In this document: piece after piece, positions 16,505-54,224 of the stretch
Position numbering within the stretch: the stretch's first letter is position 1
How the letters are laid out: each line of letters begins with the position of its first letter
From: Sneathiella sp.
Lineage (GTDB): Bacteria > Pseudomonadota > Alphaproteobacteria > Sneathiellales > Sneathiellaceae
DNA length: 63,727 nt
Assembly (NCBI RefSeq): GCF_002694385.1
Contig: NZ_NZMB01000010.1
Coordinates: 191,342-255,068, forward strand
Reading direction: 5' to 3'
Translations under genes and position numbers: made by a program
The notes under the pieces: generated by a model
Seen by the model: the letters and a program-made list of their open reading frames with translations, nothing else
What the model was told of the DNA's origin: nothing
Database searches by the model: none

Positions 16505-16703
16505 ACCCCCTCTGTCTTATAACCTGAGAGATTTGACGTTACCGGCCCCTGTTGACAGAACCAGTAGCGCTTACCCCTTCGGTGAAATTACCAAGGTAAT
16601 TTACTTTCCAGAGTTTCATCCCCCTGCGGTCCGTTTGCCTGAGAGTTTCCGGGGCGGTTGCTCCTTCGGCGATAGCCCCTTACGGCCATCTCTCCCGCCG
16701 GGA
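16505..16703 (-). promoter_or_regulatory. Tandem glycine riboswitch
   Basis: Read on the minus strand, aptamer 1 (about 16703-16621) has GGGAGAG, the core CGCCGAAGGAGCAA and the closing AAACTCTCAGGCAAACGGAC. Aptamer 2 (about 16615-16505) has the parallel core CACCGAAGGGGTAAGC and CTCTCAGGTTATAAGACAGAGG. Two aptamers in series with a short linker are the classical glycine-sensing arrangement upstream of gcv operons. Glycine binding is expected to switch on gcvT-H-PA-PB. Confidence 0.93.
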
Positions 16704-16720
16704 TCGACTGAATGGGCGGA

Positions 16721-18606: not shown

Positions 18607-19572
18607 ATGGCCGTTTATACAGAGATTTCCGATGACGAGCTGGATGCCCTGCTGGATCAGTATGATCTCGGACAGGCGCTGTCGTGCAAAGGTATTGCCG
18701 AAGGGGTCGAAAACTCCAACTTTCTGCTGCATACGGAAGGCGGATATTTCATCCTCACCCTGTATGAAAAACGCGTGAATGCGGAGGATTTGCCATTTTT
18801 CCTCGGCCTGATGGAGCATCTGGCAGCGGGCGGTTTCATGTCCCCCACGCCGGTCACCACCAGGGATGGCCGCAACCTCACCGAAGTTGCCGGACGCCCT
18901 GCCGCCATAATCGAATTTCTTGACGGACGGTCCGTCCGGCGGACCACGCCCGCTCACTGCGCCCTGCTTGGACAAACACTGGCAAAACTCCATACCATCG
19001 GCAGTGATTTCACACTGAAACGGCCCAATACATTGTCATTGGCAAGCTGGCGCCCCCTGTATGAGGCCTGTGCACGCAGCTGCGCGACCAGTCTGGAGCC
19101 GGGCCTGCTTTCCGAAATTGAGGCGGAGATCACCTTTCTGGAGGGCCATTGGCCGTCAGACCTTCCCTCCGGCGTGATCCATGCGGATCTATTCCCGGAC
19201 AATATTTTCTTCCTTAAAGAGGAAGTCAGCGGCGTTATCGACTATTATTTCGCCTGTAACGACTTTTTCGCCTATGACCTTGCCATATGCCTGAACGCCT
19301 GGTGCTTTGAAAGCGACGGCAGTTTTAATATTACCAAGGCGCGCAAGCTGCTGAATGGATATCGGGAAATCAGGCCCTTTTCACAGGAAGAGCTGGCGTT
19401 TCTGCCCCTGCTGTGCCGCGGGGCAGCGATCCGGTTTCTGCTGACACGCCTTTACGACTGGCTTAACCAGGTTGAAGGAGCCCTCGTCAAGCCAAAAGAC
19501 CCGATGGAGTATTTCCGGAAATTACAATTTCATCAGGCGGTGAGCAGTGTCGCCGCCTATGGTCTGGACTGA
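18607..19572 (+). CDS. thrB: Homoserine kinase (ThrB, APH-fold type)
   Basis: The 321-residue enzyme belongs to the choline-kinase/APH-fold homoserine kinases of alphaproteobacteria, which make O-phosphohomoserine for threonine. It starts MAVYTEISDDELDALL and has GVENSNFLL in the nucleotide loop, the catalytic motif VIHADLFPDNIFF and the metal-binding GVIDYYFA. It starts 2 bp after the ispH stop behind AAGG. The partner enzyme ThrC is encoded 5.5 kb away on the other strand. Confidence 0.95.
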   Translation: MAVYTEISDDELDALLDQYDLGQALSCKGIAEGVENSNFLLHTEGGYFILTLYEKRVNAEDLPFFLGLMEHLAAGGFMSPTPVTTRDGRNLTEVAGRPAAIIEFLDGRSVRRTTPAHCALLGQTLAKLHTIGSDFTLKRPNTLSLASWRPLYEACARSCATSLEPGLLSEIEAEITFLEGHWPSDLPSGVIHADLFPDNIFFLKEEVSGVIDYYFACNDFFAYDLAICLNAWCFESDGSFNITKARKLLNGYREIRPFSQEELAFLPLLCRGAAIRFLLTRLYDWLNQVEGALVKPKDPMEYFRKLQFHQAVSSVAAYGLD

Positions 19573-46127: not shown

Positions 46128-46936
46128 TCACCCGGCATTCCCTCAAGCAGAAGCTGTGGATCAAGGCGTGTATCGAACCAGTTGAGGCGCCAGTCAAGAT
46201 GCGCCCCCGTTGATCGTCCGGTTGATCCGACTTCACCGATCTTCTCGCCCTTCTGTACAAACTGCCCCTCCTTGACCGTCAGCGCGCTGAGGTGCGAATA
46301 AACCGATATCAGGCCGTACCCATGGTCGATCATTACGGTACCACCGGTATAGTAGAGATCCGCCTCGGCCATCCGGACAGTTCCATCGGTGGAAGCCAGA
46401 ACTTCCGTGCCTTCCGATGCAGCAATATCCAGACCGAAATGCGGCCGCTTCGGAATGCCGTTCAGAACCCGCTGGCTCCCATATACACCGCTGACACGGC
46501 CTTTCGCTGGCCATTGCCAGCCGGAAAGATACCACTCCTCTCCGGTCTCTATAGATCGGATGCGAGCGATCTCGGCATTTTCCGCATTGATCCGGGCAAG
46601 AGCTTCGGGGCTCGGCGTTACCTTGTCCGTCGCCAAACCATCAACCCGTTCGATCGGATACTCCCGTTGCGATACTTCAAGCAGCCTGTCCTCGGTCTCT
46701 CCATTCTTATAAAGAATTTTCAGAATGGCTGTCGGCTTGGAATCCCGGCCGAAACCAAACACAAAACGTCCTGATGGCGCCACGGTCAGAAGCTTGCCAT
46801 CCAGATACAATGTTGCTTCGGGGTCGGTTGTGCCCACAACAAGCCCGCCTTGCGTCATATCACCGGATAGGCTGGTCCGGTCCGCGAATGCGGGCGTCGA
46901 GATGAATAAAAAAATGAGTAGAAGACAAAATCGCAT
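46124..46936 (-). CDS. M23 family metallopeptidase (LytM-like)
   Basis: A 270-residue exported protein with signal peptide [18 protein letters not shown], a beta-rich N-domain and a C-terminal peptidase M23 domain. H166 and D170 lie in RPHFGLDIA and YSHLSALTV follows. The last motif is H246-L-D248 in GAHLDWR rather than the usual HLH, so one zinc-ligand histidine is an aspartate. It is a peptidoglycan hydrolase or a regulatory LytM homologue. Its start is coupled to the xseA stop at 46936. Confidence 0.9.
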   Translation of the reverse strand: MRFCLLLIFLFISTPAFADRTSLSGDMTQGGLVVGTTDPEATLYLDGKLLTVAPSGRFVFGFGRDSKPTAILKILYKNGETEDRLLEVSQREYPIERVDGLATDKVTPSPEALARINAENAEIARIRSIETGEEWYLSGWQWPAKGRVSGVYGSQRVLNGIPKRPHFGLDIAASEGTEVLASTDGTVRMAEADLYYTGGTVMIDHGYGLISVYSHLSALTVKEGQFVQKGEKIGEVGSTGRSTGAHLDWRLNWFDTRLDPQLLLEGMPGD

Positions 46937-48378
46937 TAAAAAAGAGTTTCCTGTTTTGGTTTCGAAGGCGATTTTCGTGGTTTTTTGGCTGCTGGTGATG
47001 CCTTCACGTCACCCGGTGCAGCACCAGAGAATATAGCGGCGGCCCGGCCATCGGCAAATTCCACTGCCACCTGACTCCCGGATGTCGCCCCACTCACGGA
47101 AGAGATCGGACGGCCGTCTTCATCCCAGACAATGCTGTATCCGCGCTTCAGCACCCGCCGGAACGACAGGCTTTCCAGAAGGCGTGCCGTCGCCGCCAGA
47201 CGATCTGTTGCCCGTTCGCGGCGGCTTTCCACGCCACGCGTCATCTGCCTGTCAAATTGCTGCAGGCGTTCACTGTACTGCGCGAGTGTCCGTTCCAGAA
47301 GTTGCGGCCTGAGATTTGAGGCAGTAGCCGTAAATTGCTGGCCTTTGATATTCAGGTTGCCGACCACCGATTGCCTGAGCCTGCTCTCGAGATGATCGAG
47401 ATGCTGCGTTTTTTCTGCAATCATTGAGGCGGGATCACGAAGGCCACGCGTCAACCCGGCAAGACGGTCCCGCCTGTCAGCAATGGCACGGGTCAGGTTG
47501 CGCCGAATACGCCGTTCCTGGTCTTCCACATAGGCAAGAAGCTCACTACGGACGGGCACCGCAATTTCCGCCGCCGCCGTCGGCGTTGGCGCCCGCTGGT
47601 CCGACGCGAAGTCAATCAGGGTCGTATCCGTTTCATGACCAACGGCAGATATCAGCGGAATCGCACTTTCTGCGGCGGCACGCACCACCTCTTCCTCATT
47701 GAACGCCCACAGATCTTCAAGACTGCCACCGCCGCGCGCCACAATCACAAGATCAGGACGCGGGATTTCCCCATCTGGTGGCAGGGCATTAAATCCACGA
47801 ATGGCCTCCGCAATCTGTCCGGCTGCCGTTTCCCCCTGCACCAGAACGGGCCAGAGAAGCACATGCACCGGGAACCGATCCCGCAGGCGATGCAGGATAT
47901 CACGGATCACCGCCCCGGTCGGTGATGTCACAACACCAATGACGGACGGCAAATAGGGTAATGGCCGCTTGCGCGCCGGATCAAAGAGCCCCTCGGCGGC
48001 GAGTTTCTTTTTACGCTCCTCCAGCAGCGCCATAAGAGCGCCGACGCCCGCCGGTTCCATCGCCTCGATCACAATCTGATATTTGGACCGGCCGGGATAA
48101 GTCGTCAACTTACCCGTACAGACCACTTCCAGCCCATCTTCGGGACGAAAGCCAAGCCGGTCGGCCGTCCCACGCCACATGACGCCGTCTATCACCGCCC
48201 GGTCATCTTTGAGCGTCAGATAGACATGACCCGATGCCGCCCGTTTGAGGCCGGAAATTTCGGCCCGGACCCGGACGTGACCGAAAACATCCTCCACCGT
48301 TCTTTTGAGGGCGCCACTCAGTTCGGAGACGGTATATTCATGAATATTTGAAGAGCCGGAATGATGATTATCTGACAC
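46936..48378 (-). CDS. xseA: Exodeoxyribonuclease VII large subunit
   Basis: A 480-residue XseA. The N-terminal OB-fold has [28 protein letters not shown] and [22 protein letters not shown], and the nuclease core follows with [38 protein letters not shown] and [15 protein letters not shown]. The C-terminus is Lys/Pro/Ala-rich. It degrades single-stranded DNA with XseB, which is not in the window. Divergent from purD. Confidence 0.96.
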
Positions 48379-48463: not shown

Positions 48464-49744
48464 ATGAATATACTTGTGATTGGCTCTGGCGGCCGCGAAC
48501 ATGCTCTGTGCTGGGCGCTGAAAAAATCCCCCCTCGTCACACAGCTTTTCTGTGCGCCCGGGAATGGCGGCATTGCCGAAGTAGCGGAATGTGTCGCCAT
48601 CAGTGCCGAAGATATTGAGGCTATTATCAAATTCTGCAAGAGCAAAGCCATTGACTTTGTCGTCATCGGCCCGGAAGTTCCCCTCGTCATCGGGCTGGTG
48701 GATGATCTGGAAGCGGCCGGAATCCGGAGCTTTGGACCCCGCGCGGCCGCGGCCGCCCTCGAAGGTTCGAAAGGCTTTATGAAAGATCTCTGCCGCGAGC
48801 ATGGCATTCCGACCGCCGCCTATCGCCGCTTTGCCGATGCGGCAGCAGCAAAAGCCTATGTCGCAACACAGGATTTGCCAATCGTCGTGAAGGCGGACGG
48901 TCTTGCTGCCGGAAAGGGCGTGATCATCGTCCAGACACGTGATGAAGCCAACGAAACCATTGATGACATTTTCGATGGCATGTTCGGCGGCGCGGGCGCT
49001 GAAATCGTCATCGAACAGTTCCTGGCGGGAGAGGAGGCAAGCTTCTTTGTGCTGACGGACGGTGAAACCATTCTGCCGCTGGCCACCGCGCAAGACCATA
49101 AAGCCGTCGGTGATGGTGATACAGGCCCCAATACGGGCGGGATGGGCGCCTATTCCCCGGCCCCGGTGATGACGGACGAGATGATCAATGCCACGATTGA
49201 GCGGATTATCAAACCGACCGTCAAGGCTATGAAAGAACGCGGCACCCCCTTCACCGGTGTTCTTTACGCCGGTCTCATGATCACCGATGAGGGACCGCAA
49301 CTGATTGAATATAATGTACGGTTCGGTGATCCGGAATGTCAGGTGCTGTGCGCCCGAATGGCGAGCGACCTGCTGCCTGCCCTGATGGCCACGGCCAATG
49401 GCAGCCTTGCCGATATCCGTCTGGAATGGCGGGAGGAAACCGCTCTTGTTGTCGTGATGGCGGCCAATGGCTATCCCGGCAATTACGAGAAAAACACGGT
49501 CATCGAGGGTCTTGATGAGGCCGCTAGAATCAAGGATGTCATCATCTTTCACGCCGGGACAAAACAGCAGGAGGGAAAGATACTGGCGACAGGCGGGCGA
49601 GTGCTTGGCGTCACCGCAATAGGAAAAACCGTTAAACAAGCGCAGAAAAATGCGTATAGTGGTGTCCACGCGATTCGCTGGCCGGATGGATTTTGCCGAT
49701 CCGATATTGGCTGGCGGGCTATCAATCGCGGCGGGGAAGAGTAG
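48464..49744 (+). CDS. purD: Phosphoribosylamine-glycine ligase
   Basis: A 426-residue ATP-grasp enzyme of de novo purine synthesis that joins glycine to phosphoribosylamine. Motifs [65 protein letters not shown] and [14 protein letters not shown] are all clear. Length is normal. The APH-fold kinase genes follow on the same strand, after 29 bp. Confidence 0.97.
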
Positions 49745-49773: not shown

Positions 49774-50844
49774 ATGTCCGACGAATCAACACAGTTTTCC
49801 GGAACGATGGAAGTGCGCGAGCGCCACCGCTTCGATGTTGCCGCACTGGAAGAATATCTCAAGAAAAACATAGTCGGCTTTAAAGGACCGCTTGACGTGG
49901 CCCAGTTCAAGGGCGGACAGTCAAACCCGAGCTATATGCTGAAAACGCCCGAGAAACAATATGTCCTGCGGCGCAAACCTCCGGGGAAACTCCTGCCCTC
50001 CGCCCATGCGGTGGACCGCGAATACCGGGTTCTGACGGCGCTTGCAAGAACGGATGTGCCGGTTCCGAAAACCTACTGCCTGTGCGAAGATGAAAATGTC
50101 ATCGGGACGATTTTTTATGTCATGGAGTTCCTGAACGGCGATATCGAGTGGGATCCGTCCCTGCCCGGCTATTCGAAGGCCGGTCGCGTTGCCGCCTTTG
50201 ACAGCATGAATGCCTCTCTCGCCGCGCTGCATATGGTGGACTACAAGGCCGCCGGGCTGGAAGATTTTGGCAAGCCGACAGATTATATCGCCCGGCAGGT
50301 GAACCGCTGGACGAAACAGTACCGGGCTTCCGAAACCGAGAAAATCGAAGCAATGGAAAATCTGATGGCATGGCTGCCCGACAATATTCCGGCAGCCGAT
50401 GAGACTTCCATTGTGCATGGGGATTACCGCCTGGACAATACGGTTCTCGACAAGGAAAGTCATCGGGTGATCGGCATTCTCGACTGGGAGCTGGCAACGC
50501 TCGGCCATCCGCTCGCCGATTTTTCCTATCATTGCATGACCTGGCGCCTCGAGCCGGAACTGTTCCGTGGCCTCAAGGGGCTGGATTTGCCCGCACTCGG
50601 CATCCCGACTGAAGAGCAATATGTGAAAATGTATTGCGAGCGCACCGGCCGGGACGGCATCGAGAATTGGGACTTCTATTTTGCCTACAACATGTTCCGT
50701 CTGGCGGCCATCCTGCAAGGGATCGTCGGCCGCGTGAAAGAGGGAACGGCTTCCAACAAGAATGCCGCGGATGTCGCCGAGCGGGTCAAACCACTTGCCA
50801 TGCGCGGATGGGAACAGGCGGAAAAAGTCATCAGGGGGAGCTGA
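49774..50844 (+). CDS. APH-fold kinase-like protein, first copy
   Basis: A 356-residue phosphotransferase-family protein with GGQSNPSYML in the nucleotide loop, RRKPPG, catalytic HGDYRLDN (H215, D217, N222) and the metal aspartate ILDWELATLGHP (D237). This is the APH subgroup usually found with acyl-CoA dehydrogenases, like the kinase domain of ACAD10/ACAD11 and LvaA, not an antibiotic-resistance enzyme. Those relatives phosphorylate 4-hydroxyacyl-CoA. A paralogue follows 50 bp downstream and an acyl-CoA dehydrogenase lies 1.5 kb away on the minus strand. Confidence 0.88.
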   Translation: MSDESTQFSGTMEVRERHRFDVAALEEYLKKNIVGFKGPLDVAQFKGGQSNPSYMLKTPEKQYVLRRKPPGKLLPSAHAVDREYRVLTALARTDVPVPKTYCLCEDENVIGTIFYVMEFLNGDIEWDPSLPGYSKAGRVAAFDSMNASLAALHMVDYKAAGLEDFGKPTDYIARQVNRWTKQYRASETEKIEAMENLMAWLPDNIPAADETSIVHGDYRLDNTVLDKESHRVIGILDWELATLGHPLADFSYHCMTWRLEPELFRGLKGLDLPALGIPTEEQYVKMYCERTGRDGIENWDFYFAYNMFRLAAILQGIVGRVKEGTASNKNAADVAERVKPLAMRGWEQAEKVIRGS

Positions 50845-50894
50845 GCTCCCCCTCACTTCCCTATAAAATCAAAAGTATATAAAGGAGGGACCCC

Positions 50895-51944
50895 ATGTCT
50901 GATGGGACCATAATCATCCCGGTTCGGGAAGCGCACCAGTTCGACGAAGGGGCTTTATACGAATATCTCAAAGCCAATATCGATGGATTCAAAGGACCCC
51001 TGAAAGTCAGGCAGTTTCAGGGCGGGCAATCCAATCCAACTTTTCTGCTGGAAACCCCGGAGCGCGACTATGTCATGCGGAAAAAACCTCCCGGGGTTCT
51101 GCTTCCTTCCGCGCATGCCGTCGATCGGGAATATCGGGTCATCTCCGCCCTTCAGAACACCAATGTCCCCGTCCCCCGGACATATTGCCTGTGCGAAGAT
51201 CCGGAGATTATCGGCACTGCTTTCTATGTCATGGAAAGAATTAACGGACGCGTGATCACGATCCCCTCAATTCCAAAAATGGCGCCGGAGCAGCGTTCTG
51301 CCATTTACGATTCCATGAATGATGCATTGGCCAAAATGCATAATGTCGATGTTGATGCGGTAGGCCTGTCCGATTTCGGCAAAAAAGGCGGCTATCTAGC
51401 CCGCCAGGTCAACCGCTGGAGCAAACAGTATCGCGCCTCCCAGACCCATGAGCTGGAAGGAATGGAAAATCTCATCAAATGGCTGCCAGACAACATCCCG
51501 GCGGATGATGAAAGCACCATTGTGCACGGTGACTTTCGCCTCGGTAATTTGATCCTGCATCCGACGGAGCCCCGGGTTCTCGCCATTCTCGACTGGGAAC
51601 TGGCAACAATCGGGCATCCGCTTTCCGATCTCGCCTATAACTGCATGGCCTACCATTTCGTGCACCCTATCAACGGTGGGCTGGTTGATTTCAACCTGAA
51701 AGAAATGGGCATCCCATCGGAACAGGAATATATTGACGCCTATTGCAAACGCACCGGGCGCGATGGCATTGATAATTGGGAATATTACATTGCCTTTTCC
51801 CTGTTCCGCGTGACAGCGATTGTTCAGGGTGTTTACAAACGCGGCCTGGATGGCAACGCCAGTTCCGAAGTCGGTGAAGAATATACGAAATACGCAAAGA
51901 TGGTGGCCGATCTCGGCTGGCAGTATATCGAGAAACGGGGCTGA
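50895..51944 (+). CDS. APH-fold kinase-like protein, second copy
   Basis: A 349-residue paralogue of the preceding gene, alike along its whole length by eye (shared PSAHAVDREYRV, TYCLCED, LARQVNRW, KRTGRDGI). Kinase residues H211, D213 and N218 (HGDFRLGN) and D233 (ILDWELATIG) are intact. It starts at ATG 50895 behind a strong AGGAGGG. The two copies could act on different hydroxyacyl-CoA substrates or as a heterodimer; neither is shown. Confidence 0.88.
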   Translation: MSDGTIIIPVREAHQFDEGALYEYLKANIDGFKGPLKVRQFQGGQSNPTFLLETPERDYVMRKKPPGVLLPSAHAVDREYRVISALQNTNVPVPRTYCLCEDPEIIGTAFYVMERINGRVITIPSIPKMAPEQRSAIYDSMNDALAKMHNVDVDAVGLSDFGKKGGYLARQVNRWSKQYRASQTHELEGMENLIKWLPDNIPADDESTIVHGDFRLGNLILHPTEPRVLAILDWELATIGHPLSDLAYNCMAYHFVHPINGGLVDFNLKEMGIPSEQEYIDAYCKRTGRDGIDNWEYYIAFSLFRVTAIVQGVYKRGLDGNASSEVGEEYTKYAKMVADLGWQYIEKRG

Positions 51945-51978
51945 AACTTTCCGCACGCACGAACAGGCCCTAATAAGC

Positions 51979-52007
51979 CGGGGCGGCACTCTCACCAGGC
52001 CGTCCCG
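51979..52007 (+). terminator. Possible terminator after the kinase pair
   Basis: CGGGGCGGC (51979-51987) can pair with GCCGTCCCG (51999-52007) with one G-U wobble. Only a weak T-tract follows. Confidence 0.4.
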
Positions 52008-52018
52008 CTTGCATCAGT

Positions 52019-52249
52019 TCAGTGACTTTCTGCATCCTCGACGCGCAAATCGGCCCAGCGCTGCACGCATTCCATTGGCTCCATCACAATACCGGCCGCC
52101 TCTCCTAAACCCTGAACCGGTTGCAATCCGGCATGCGCCGCCAGATCCTGTGTCAACCATTCGCAAGGATTAAGGCTTTCATATCGATAGAGAAAGCCCG
52201 CGACGACGACAATCACGCCAAGCATTATCCAGCCCAGGAGTTTGATCAT
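52019..52249 (-). CDS. Small single-helix membrane protein, unknown
   Basis: A 76-residue protein with an N-terminal hydrophobic helix (LLGWIMLGVIVVVAGFLYRYE) and a 50-residue soluble tail containing two cysteines (NPCEWLTQDL and MECVQRWADL) that may pair in the periplasm. I do not recognise the family. It lies between the kinase pair and the acyl-CoA dehydrogenase terminator. Coding capacity is supported by the sensible hydrophobic profile but not by a known homologue. Confidence 0.6.
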   Translation of the reverse strand: MIKLLGWIMLGVIVVVAGFLYRYESLNPCEWLTQDLAAHAGLQPVQGLGEAAGIVMEPMECVQRWADLRVEDAESH

Positions 52250-52344
52250 TATTTCATTCCGTGAAAAGGCGGCAAAACGGAGATATGCGCCTGTATATAG
52301 GAAAGGCGGATCACCATGCTAACAAAAAATCAATCGTCAAAAAG

Positions 52345-52370
52345 AAAAGCCCTTCCGAAGAAGGGCTTTT
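52345..52370 (-). terminator. Terminator of the acyl-CoA dehydrogenase gene
   Basis: AAAAGCCCTTC (52345-52355) pairs perfectly with GAAGGGCTTTT (52360-52370) with a CGAA loop. The minus strand then reads CTTTTT. It stands 26 bp beyond the dehydrogenase stop. Confidence 0.85.
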
Positions 52371-52395
52371 CGCCATGTCGTCAATCAATAGCCGC

Positions 52396-53598
52396 TCAGT
52401 CGTACTTTTTAAGTTCCAACCGGCCGATCTGGTTACGATGCACCTCATCCGGCCCGTCGGCGAGGCGCAATGTCCGTGAGCGCGCATAGGCATAGGCGAG
52501 ACCGAAGTCTTCGCTGACACCCCCAGCGCCATGTGCCTGGATCGCCCAATCAATGATTTTGCCGCACATATTGGGCGCGATAACCTTGATCATGGCGATT
52601 TCCGCCTTGGCAGCCTTGTTCCCGACGGTGTCCATCATATAAGCGGCTTTCAGCGTCAGCAGACGAGCCTGCTCGATCATCGCGCGGGATTCAGCGATAC
52701 GCTCAAGGGTAACGGTCTGCTCCCCGATCGTTTTACCAAAGGCAACGCGATGCTTGACGCGTTTGCACAGCTTCTCCAACGCCCGCTCGGCAACGCCGAT
52801 CTGGCGCATGCAATGGTGAATACGGCCCGGGCCAAGCCGTCCTTGCGCAATTTCAAAACCGCGTCCTTCACCGAGCAGCATATGGTCCGCCGGAACGCGG
52901 ACATTTTTGAACTCCACTTCCGCATGGCCATGCGGCGCATCATCATACCCGAACACAGGCAGGAACCGCTTGATGTGAATGCCGGGTGTATCCATCGGCA
53001 CGACAATCATCGACTGCTGTGTATAAAGCGATGCGGTTTTGTCAGTCTTGCCCATGAAGATCAACACTTTACAGCGCGGATCGTTTGCACCGGATGTCCA
53101 CCACTTGGTGCCGTTGATGACATATTCATCCCCGTCACGCGTGATTTCAGATTCGATATTCGTTGCATCCGAAGAGGCCACCGCCGGTTCCGTCATCGCG
53201 AAGGCGGAGCGGATTTCCCCTTCCAGAAGCGGTTTCAGCCAGCGCTCTTTCAGCTCCGGGCTGGCATAACGCTCGAACACCTCCATATTGCCTGTATCCG
53301 GAGCAGAACAGTTGAAAACTTCGGGCGCGAAGCTGACCCGACCCATGATTTCACAAAGCGGAGCATATTCAAGGTTAGTCAATCCTGCGCCGAGATCACT
53401 TTCCGGCAGGAACAGATTCCACAAACCCGCCGCCTTCGCTTTGGCCTTGAGTTCATCAAGGATGGCCGTTGGCTGCCACCGGTCTCCTTCAGCGATCTGG
53501 TCGTAATAGACCTGCTCATTAGGATAGACATGCTCATCCATGAAGGCCTGCAATCTTTCCTGCAGTTCCTTCACCTTGTCAGAATATTCGAAAATCAT
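52396..53598 (-). CDS. Acyl-CoA dehydrogenase (ACAD10/11-like)
   Basis: A 400-residue flavoprotein with the ACAD signatures [44 protein letters not shown] and [41 protein letters not shown]. The DGPDEVH ending is typical of the ACAD10/ACAD11 group, whose members act on phosphorylated 4-hydroxyacyl-CoA together with an APH-fold kinase. Two such kinases lie next to it, convergent. Role in hydroxy-fatty-acid or levulinate-like degradation is inferred from this pairing. Confidence 0.9.
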
Positions 53599-53652: not shown

Positions 53653-54111
53653 TTAGCGCCGGGTTTCAAAGAATTTCTTTAAAAGCCCTGCTGATTTACT
53701 CTCCTGTAAACCGCCGTAAATCTCGGGACGATGATGGCAGCTCGACTGATCGAAGATGCGGGCGCCATATTCGACGCCACCGCCTTTGGGATCATAAGCG
53801 CCAAAATAAAGACGCCGGATGCGCGCCAGCGAGATGGCCGCCGCGCACATGGGGCAAGGTTCCAGCGTCACATATAGATCGCAATCCACCAGCCGCGAAC
53901 TGCCCAGCATATTTCCCGCCGCCCGGATCGCCAGCATTTCCGCATGCGCTGTCGGATCATGACGTCCGATCATCTGATTACCGCAATTAGCGACGACACG
54001 GCCGGTCCGCGTATCGACGATAACGGCGCCCACCGGCACTTCGTTACGATGCCCGGCAATTTCAGCCGTGGCCAGCGCCATATCCATATAATCAACGATT
54101 TCACGATCCAT
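53653..54111 (-). CDS. tadA: tRNA-specific adenosine deaminase
   Basis: A 152-residue TadA that converts A34 to inosine in tRNA-Arg. Zinc motif H56-A-E58 in PTAHAEML and C86-P-M-C89 in LEPCPMC are intact. The start ATG 54111 is preferred over a TTG at 54126. Length is normal. Confidence 0.95.
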   Translation of the reverse strand: MDREIVDYMDMALATAEIAGHRNEVPVGAVIVDTRTGRVVANCGNQMIGRHDPTAHAEMLAIRAAGNMLGSSRLVDCDLYVTLEPCPMCAAAISLARIRRLYFGAYDPKGGGVEYGARIFDQSSCHHRPEIYGGLQESKSAGLLKKFFETRR

Positions 54112-54224
54112 GCCGCACAGTCGCAATTAGAACCACGGCCGTCAAGAGACAGAAAAGCACGTAAATATATCTGCCCGTCAAAGAGGCCGGTTGAGTTACG
54201 ATCAAGACAGGATTAAAAGGAGCT

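Follow-up and report, generated by a model that had tools for sequence, protein, structure and literature searches.

A putative 4-hydroxy acid system of the split ACAD10/11 type, with tandem kinases, in Sneathiella

Described 4-hydroxyacyl-CoA systems and the Sneathiella locus

4-Hydroxy acids come from lipid peroxidation, gamma-lactones, and levulinate, and a 63,727-nucleotide stretch of a Sneathiella sp. genome (contig NZ_NZMB01000010.1, positions 191,342 to 255,068; hereafter the window) carries three genes, two tandem kinase genes (K1 and K2) and an acyl-coenzyme A (CoA) dehydrogenase gene on the opposite strand, that very likely encode a split 4-hydroxyacyl-CoA system of the kind known from LvaA/LvaC and ACAD10/11. 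The animal enzymes of this kind were described only in 2024-2025 (PMC11342911, PMC12440821). The homologues use adenosine triphosphate (ATP) to phosphorylate the 4-hydroxyl of the CoA ester, and the ensuing elimination needs redox-active flavin adenine dinucleotide (FAD), involves no net redox change, and yields 2-trans-enoyl-CoA (PMC11342911, PMC12440821). One of the two studies reports, for ACAD10, about fourfold more product of its kinase from R- than from S-4-hydroxyhexanoyl-CoA, a preference in cells of ACAD10 for shorter and of ACAD11 for longer chains, an identity of 29% between LvaA and the ACAD10/11 kinases, and the ability of a Burkholderia pseudomallei kinase and dehydrogenase to replace the ACAD10 halves on 4-hydroxyhexanoyl-CoA (PMC11342911). 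Homologues of lvaABCD are recorded from Alpha-, Beta-, and Gammaproteobacteria (PMC6692424, citing Rand et al. 2017).

The genes of the window system are as follows:

49774-50844, plus strand: K1, ACAD10/11-type kinase of 356 amino acids (aa); loop HGDYRLDN; Pfam APH (PF01636), 181 bits
50895-51944, plus strand: K2, second ACAD10/11-type kinase of 349 aa; loop HGDFRLGN; Pfam APH (PF01636), 186 bits
52396-53598, minus strand: ACAD10/11/LvaC-type dehydrogenase of 400 aa; matches four Pfam acyl-CoA dehydrogenase models

The kinase and dehydrogenase parts of ACAD11 are homologous to the window proteins and share the same catalytic and phosphate-binding residues; whereas ACAD10 and ACAD11 are each a single fused chain, the window has three separate genes on two strands, with two kinases, and is devoid of the HAD domain found in ACAD10. 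In B. pseudomallei the LvaA/LvaC orthologues are separate proteins, as in the window. The Pseudomonas putida lvaABCDE system follows the same two-step logic, a kinase followed by a phosphate-eliminating dehydrogenase, but a scan of ten flanking proteins in the window revealed no lvaR-, lvaB-, lvaD-, or lvaE-like gene, and the neighbors (purD, xseA, and a tadA-like gene) rule out that the locus is an lva operon. Hence, the split 4-hydroxyacyl-CoA system proposed in a first-pass annotation of this DNA is supported with regard to its ACAD10/11-related types and residues, but the locus is not an lva operon.

K1 and K2 are 57% identical to each other. In comparisons with PDB sequences, 3dxp and mouse ACAD11 match K1 at 461 and 284 bits and K2 at 400 and 286 bits, respectively, and the dehydrogenase scores 482 bits with 4hr3, 469 bits with human ACAD11, and 466 bits with mouse ACAD11, the next match after ACAD11 being an ordinary dehydrogenase at only 128 bits. 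The nearest solved relatives, 3dxp for the kinases and 4hr3 for the dehydrogenase, are single proteins that were both deposited as "putative acyl-CoA dehydrogenase." Judged by these sequence comparisons, K1, K2, and the dehydrogenase belong to ACAD10/11-related families and are close kin of the two halves of ACAD11. A very different identity, that of ordinary aminoglycoside kinases beside an ordinary beta-oxidation dehydrogenase, might be read from the Pfam label APH and from weak matches to NCBIfam APH models. We regard it as scarcely credible: the APH(3') aminoglycoside-kinase model gives 33.6 and 44.2 bits, the latter being the best such score, where 205 would be required, all NCBIfam matches listed for the two kinases and the dehydrogenase stay below their cut-offs, and both the ACAD11-type residues and the co-occurrence described below contradict it.

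In mouse ACAD11, R626, H634, and R637 contact the phosphate, R631 is conserved in the family, and D753 is the catalytic base, and it was non-conservative changes (Ala/Leu) of the three phosphate contacts that impaired the dehydrogenase step of ACAD10/11 most (PMC12440821). In our alignment the window dehydrogenase has the equivalents of R626, R631, H634, C635, M636, R637, and D753 without exception, and so carries the residues that ACAD11 requires for 4-phosphoacyl-CoA. Dehydrogenase rows from the fetched loci were aligned with human ACAD11, and those scoring >250 bits against the window gene were taken as the type set; in this set of 145 rows, some of which represent one gene fetched twice, the signature R-R-H-(C/S)-M-R-D is present in 144, the remaining row being gapped there. 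Among the commonest patterns of 47 lower-scoring rows, one had RRHCMR with S at the D753 position, and the others were gapped or did not have the set. On the kinase side, K1 and K2 both retain the catalytic Asp, the metal-binding Asn, the DWE motif, and the equivalent of ACAD11 R176, a CoA-contacting Arg found in 108/108 rows of the K1 group and 30/30 rows of the K2 group defined below. The number R86 of ACAD11 maps to a Tyr/Phe column, and both kinases have an Arg ahead of the helix-C Glu (DRE). The earlier description of two tandem paralogous kinases with intact catalytic residues, and of a dehydrogenase facing them, is thus confirmed by the open reading frames (ORFs) and by the kept residues, and the match to ACAD11 is much stronger than chance would give.

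Taking these findings together, we propose, and consider it likely, that the locus encodes a two-kinase, split counterpart of ACAD10/11 acting on 4-hydroxy acids, in which K2 serves a different set of 4-hydroxyacyl-CoAs. By analogy with the described enzymes we infer both the substrates of the three proteins and the division of labor between K1 and K2. An acyl-CoA synthetase encoded elsewhere would make the 4-hydroxyacyl-CoA, K1 or K2 would phosphorylate its 4-hydroxyl with ATP, and the flavin dehydrogenase would remove the phosphate through a redox-neutral cycle in which the substrate is transiently oxidized and then re-reduced on FAD, releasing a 2-enoyl-CoA into beta-oxidation. K2 would most likely handle other 4-hydroxyacyl-CoAs, distinguished by chain length, branching, or R/S form, with the same dehydrogenase acting downstream. 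Which substrates the bacterial family accepts has hardly been charted, and a second, old, and slightly different kinase copy may widen the range of molecules handled.

Co-occurrence and the age of the kinase pair

The coupling of kinase and dehydrogenase was assessed in an evenly drawn sample of 219 Pseudomonadota genomes, with thresholds of E <= 1e-25 for the kinase (K1-like) and E <= 1e-85 for the dehydrogenase. A K1-like kinase was found in 77 genomes and an ACAD11-type dehydrogenase in 75; both were present in 75, the kinase only in 2 (G071 and G246), the dehydrogenase only in none, and neither in 142 (Fisher p 4e-57, in a test that ignores shared ancestry). Genomes without the pair may hold many ordinary dehydrogenase candidates, such as G067 with 14. 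Chance pairing is ruled out by this co-occurrence, which, together with the PDB scores and the diagnostic Arg/His/Arg/Asp set, substantiates the relationship to ACAD10/11 suggested at first. In a further set of 60 relatives, the kinase was present in 36, the dehydrogenase in 39, and both in 36. The kinase of G071 (locus L255) has the K2-like loop HGDYRVGN, and that of G246 is at locus L253.

Kinase phylogeny was examined in a tree of 167 rows, left from 207 after removal of rows >95% identical, in a careful tree of 50 chosen rows, and in a wider tree of 130 of 268 rows. ORFs of <300 aa (167-row tree) or <290 aa (wider tree), or of <=140 bits, were excluded, a length filter that leaves out the broken K2 of G009, and LvaA and LvaC are not among the rows. 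In the 167-kinase tree, 26/26 upstream copies of tandem pairs fall in one group (K1), and 26/26 downstream copies fall in another (K2; 30 rows). The K1 group also takes in 3dxp, which sits nearest Cupriavidus/Ralstonia rows, as well as Burkholderia, gammaproteobacterial, and single alphaproteobacterial kinases; K1 is the more widespread subfamily and would be the ordinary kinase of the family. The Burkholderia kinases at L146, L159, and L169 are all in the K1 group, and the tested B. pseudomallei kinase, Q63VL0, is probably of the K1 type as well. At L146, L159, and L174 (Burkholderia/Paraburkholderia), one K1-group kinase lies beside the dehydrogenase on the same strand with no K2 adjoining; at L169, from Burkholderia stagnalis, no such dehydrogenase was found in the fetched stretch. 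The careful tree supports the K1 group at 95/89 (29 rows), or 99/90 with 3 more rows, and places every tandem K2 row outside that group. Constraining K1 and K2 of the genus together cost 84 log units (approximately unbiased [AU] test, p = 0.00016), which rules out a recent local or within-genus duplication of K1 into K2. The tree comparisons indicate that K1 and K2 are two old subfamilies, with K2 being either a basal grade or a single clade. The positions of mouse ACAD11, 9o56, and the Ferrovibrio K2, all on long branches, are insecure.

A separate group of kinases with an HND loop is about 29-34% identical to mouse ACAD11, and these may be a candidate LvaA-like group. In family f63, 57 of 59 scanned genomes of one genus have an ACAD11-type dehydrogenase (main copy 66-72% identical), and 0/5 neighborhoods of the single or main copy (L178-L181 and L184) show a kinase of the family beside it, the kinases located elsewhere in f63 having an HND loop where read. 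A reference lva operon was also sought through the dehydrogenase in these 59 genomes; two had a second copy, and the neighborhoods of these second copies were not lva-like (L198, by Pfam scan; L199, as judged from the ORF list).

Sequence divergence and possible roles of K2

The clearest mark of K2 lies in the catalytic loop. The residue before the loop Asn is Asp in 107/108 K1 rows, the exception being a third kinase of this genome (K3; His), and in 11/11 HND-loop rows, as it is in ACAD11. The 30 K2 rows have Glu in 21, Gly in 8, Ala in 1, and Asp in 0. Within the 26 tandem pairs, the upstream copies have Asp in 26/26 and the downstream copies Glu in 19 and Gly in 7; in the window, K2 has Gly there. 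The groups also differ consistently at nine other columns, including F250/H253/W257 of K1 versus L246/N249/Y253 of K2. The corresponding residue of protein kinases, Glu170 in PKA, contacts the peptide substrate, and by this analogy the changed residue of K2 would point to an altered substrate side. Because ACAD10 and ACAD11 offer a parallel, the two kinases may split chain length or stereochemistry within one cell, and we favor different substrates for K1 and K2.

It might be countered that K2 phosphorylates another class of compound altogether, rather than 4-hydroxyacyl-CoA, and shares only its location with K1. The changed loop residue and the nine other changed columns would fit such a role, as would the lower conservation of K2 than of K1 in 169/210 pairs within the genus (mean identity, 74% versus 78%) and the presence of a K2-like kinase without the dehydrogenase in G071. 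Yet the CoA-contacting Arg is kept in every K2 row, the relatedness of K2 to ACAD11 reaches 286 bits, different lineages keep K2 next to K1 and close to the dehydrogenase, and G089 has a K2-type kinase and the dehydrogenase with no K1; on balance, we consider this reading unlikely. G089, a 100% complete genome, has one kinase match (E <= 1e-25) and one dehydrogenase (77%), on different contigs, and the kinase is of the K2 type (loop HGDYRLEN) and lies 56 bp from purD, at the usual place of K1. Outside the class, G125, G188, and G224 have a K2-like kinase (GN loop) with a dehydrogenase on the same strand 0.7-1.1 kb off and no K1 adjoining, their rows being at the edge of the K2 group with an unsettled placement; G125 and G188 additionally carry an HND-loop kinase 1.2 kb from another dehydrogenase. 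These few genomes argue that a K2-type kinase could serve the dehydrogenase alone.

The same genomes bear on the suggestion, also made at first, that K1 and K2 form a heterodimer. In its obligate form, one chain would be catalytic and the other structural or regulatory, and in its favor are the identical order of the pair in every tandem seen, the dimerization of kinase domains via helix C in the ACAD11 structure (PMC12440821), and the tandem K2 of Ferrovibrio (L102, 9072-10136), in which the loop reads HGNFRLES, without the catalytic Asp and the metal-binding Asn, as a non-catalytic partner might. However, the catalytic Asp is retained in 29/30 K2 rows, K1-type kinases occur without an adjoining K2 in 75 single-kinase named loci, and K2-like kinases stand near the dehydrogenase without an adjoining K1 in G125, G188, and G224. 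An obligate heterodimer is further weakened because the sole family match of G089 is a K2-type kinase, and we deem it quite improbable. What survives of the suggestion is a possible non-catalytic role in the Ferrovibrio lineage, because its K2 has lost the catalytic Asp and Asn; this K2 may perhaps be an inactive kinase kept beside K1.

Nor is it at all probable that K2 is simply a redundant dosage copy with no distinct function. The overall similarity of 57% between K1 and K2, the broken K2 frame of G009, and the decayed look of the Ferrovibrio K2 could be accommodated by such a history, but the old split, the separate fixed residues, and purifying selection are at odds with it. Within the genus, the ratio of nonsynonymous to synonymous substitution rates (dN/dS) of K1 and K2, where it could be computed among the 8 closest pairs, is 0.02-0.05, with dS in close pairs of 0.6 to 2.7 and hence partly saturated; K1 and K2 are both under purifying selection there. 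In G009, an otherwise good genome, K2 is split into two overlapping frames (L067, 7639-8695), which is either a broken gene or a sequencing error.

Several observations weigh against the proposed system and the place of K2 in it. The association of kinase and dehydrogenase was tested without regard to shared ancestry; the dehydrogenase occurs with no kinase match in G008, G016, and G052 of the 60 relatives (G008 is in 580 contigs, G016 is 56% complete, and the dehydrogenase match of G052 is 38% identical); and G071 has its K2-like kinase without an ACAD11-type dehydrogenase at E <= 1e-85. In the 167-kinase tree, the K2 group has moderate support (SH-like approximate likelihood ratio test [SH-aLRT], 85), and in the careful tree the K2 rows of the genus branch closer to the K1 group than do the remaining downstream copies (95/85). 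The downstream copies alone as one clade gave p = 0.0116, and with the non-tandem L062, L194, and L044 included p = 0.27. The loop residue is likewise an imperfect mark, as Glu/Gly is found there in the divergent non-K2 rows L266, L267, L252, and L255 and in L147 from Rokubacteria, which is outside the main K2 group, and L236 retains the Asp although it is among the K2-like rows. The long-branched Ferrovibrio K2 without its catalytic residues also tells against a catalytic role throughout, and for K2 acting alone G089 is a single genome and thin evidence. The scan of ten flanking proteins turned up no acyl-CoA synthetase, short-chain dehydrogenase/reductase, or LvaB-like gene, and the purD/tadA neighborhood offers no metabolic clue. 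Finally, no assayed enzyme from this genus was found in the literature searched.

With different substrates for K1 and K2 as the favored reading, a further-reaching version is that K2 is an undescribed second subfamily of 4-hydroxyacyl-CoA kinases, with Glu/Gly for the loop Asp, that takes substrates K1 cannot, and that the whole K1-K2-dehydrogenase module has occupied the purD site since early Alphaproteobacteria. We offer this version tentatively, as possible but doubtful; if it is true, K2-only substrates could be, for example, S-epimers or longer or branched 4-hydroxyacyl-CoAs. In the available parts of the open-access literature searched, which did not extend to Rand et al. 2017 or supplementary figures, neither a tandem kinase pair nor a K1/K2 division was found. 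The new part is the occurrence of paired, anciently split kinases at a recurrent site, the basic system being already known. An old paralogue pair seemingly feeding one dehydrogenase, with a difference in the catalytic loop, makes the determinants of chain length or stereochemistry testable on three small soluble proteins.

Arrangement of the locus, its neighbors, and further family members

The arrangement was compared across 80 named loci, which are the best matches to K1 and hence an uneven sample. One kinase and the dehydrogenase lie on the same strand within 300 bp in 37 and further apart in 6; a single kinase has the dehydrogenase on the opposite strand in 5; a kinase tandem has the dehydrogenase on the opposite strand in 5; and no such dehydrogenase is within the fetched flank in 27. 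A single kinase with the dehydrogenase is the usual form, and 5/80 loci have the two-kinase arrangement. In the 219-genome sample, no tandem was seen apart from the window's own. Within the genus, the pair is present in 22/24 genomes, the window's included, with a broken K2 frame in G009, and both kinases are missing from G008 and G016. Among named relatives, Sneathiella sp. NORP162 (L098) is the closest, with a K1 of 83% identity. The order K1-K2 is invariant in all tandems seen, which come from several alphaproteobacterial lineages.

The remaining features at and around the window locus are as follows:

50881-50889, plus strand: probable ribosome-binding site of K2, AAAGGAGGG, read from the sequence ahead of the K2 ATG
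50833-50853, no strand given: strong GC-rich hairpin at the K1/K2 junction, without a T-run on the plus strand
52344-52371, minus strand: probable intrinsic terminator just 3' of the dehydrogenase gene, with 12 pairs followed by TTTTT
48464-49744, plus strand: purD, 30 bp upstream of K1 (NCBIfam TIGR00877, 554 bits)
53653-54126, minus strand: tadA-like deaminase gene, upstream of the dehydrogenase gene on its strand (Pfam PF00383/PF14437)
46936-48378, minus strand: xseA, exonuclease VII large subunit, on the outer flank (Pfam PF02601)

The hairpin at the junction may tune K2 expression. The terminator was called by a consensus scan, which returned 11 such sites in the region against 6.8 expected. 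Besides purD, xseA, and the tadA-like gene, the Pfam scan of the ten flanking proteins identified a peptidase C26, a pseudouridine synthase, a Cons_hypoth95 methyltransferase, PhyH, HI0933-like, and peptidase M23 proteins, and one without a match. Many alphaproteobacterial loci share a layout with xseA and purD to one side and a tadA-like gene close to the dehydrogenase. The combination of purD, kinase, and dehydrogenase recurs in families f1, f2, f4, f5, f10, f19, f26, f28, and f30 and at several named loci, with varying order and strand: the dehydrogenase is between the kinase and purD in L056 and on the kinase strand in L060, L111, and L126. All tandems with a flank reaching purD are downstream of it, within ~160 bp (744 bp in L123); these are from members of the genus, G024, G033, Ferrovibrio (L102), L123, and Rhodobiaceae (L128), and L132. 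The stretch around L128 showed no tadA-like gene.

The count of two kinases for one dehydrogenase, as first noted, holds at the locus but not genome-wide, since the genome also has two more dehydrogenases that bear the ACAD11 signature, as well as another kinase of this family. In addition to the window copy, these dehydrogenases are at C16:134113 (62%), flanked by MaoC-like and LysR genes, and at C18:246964 (42%), which has Ser for Cys in the signature and adjoins a CoA-transferase III gene. The third kinase, K3 (C7:100021-101007; L049 and L003; 43%), has the loop HGDYKLHN, is close to a TetR regulator and transporter-looking genes, and has relatives in G013 and G021. A distant fourth APH-like kinase at C18:205787 (31%; loop HNDFRNGN) follows an acyl-CoA dehydrogenase that has F-R-Q-A-A-S-E in place of the ACAD11 signature, and this locus (L052, C18:204612-206491) is possibly another kinase-dehydrogenase pair with a different chemistry.

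Fusions of the kinase to other domains were considered and set aside, as the long open frames at L227, L236, and L237 seemed to result from overreading of high-GC sequence. In two members of the genus, L098 (5604-6896) and L068 (9597-10925), an extra gene lies between K2 and the dehydrogenase, that of L098 encoding an M24 metallopeptidase; the window does not have it. Another APH-family gene of the window, at 18607-19572 on the plus strand, is outside this system and encodes the homoserine kinase ThrB (NCBIfam, 403 bits). Elsewhere in the window, at 16510-16707 on the minus strand, two glycine riboswitch aptamers in tandem (67 and 41 bits) stand immediately before gcvT, with a glycine-cleavage P-protein gene further along, which is an ordinary arrangement.

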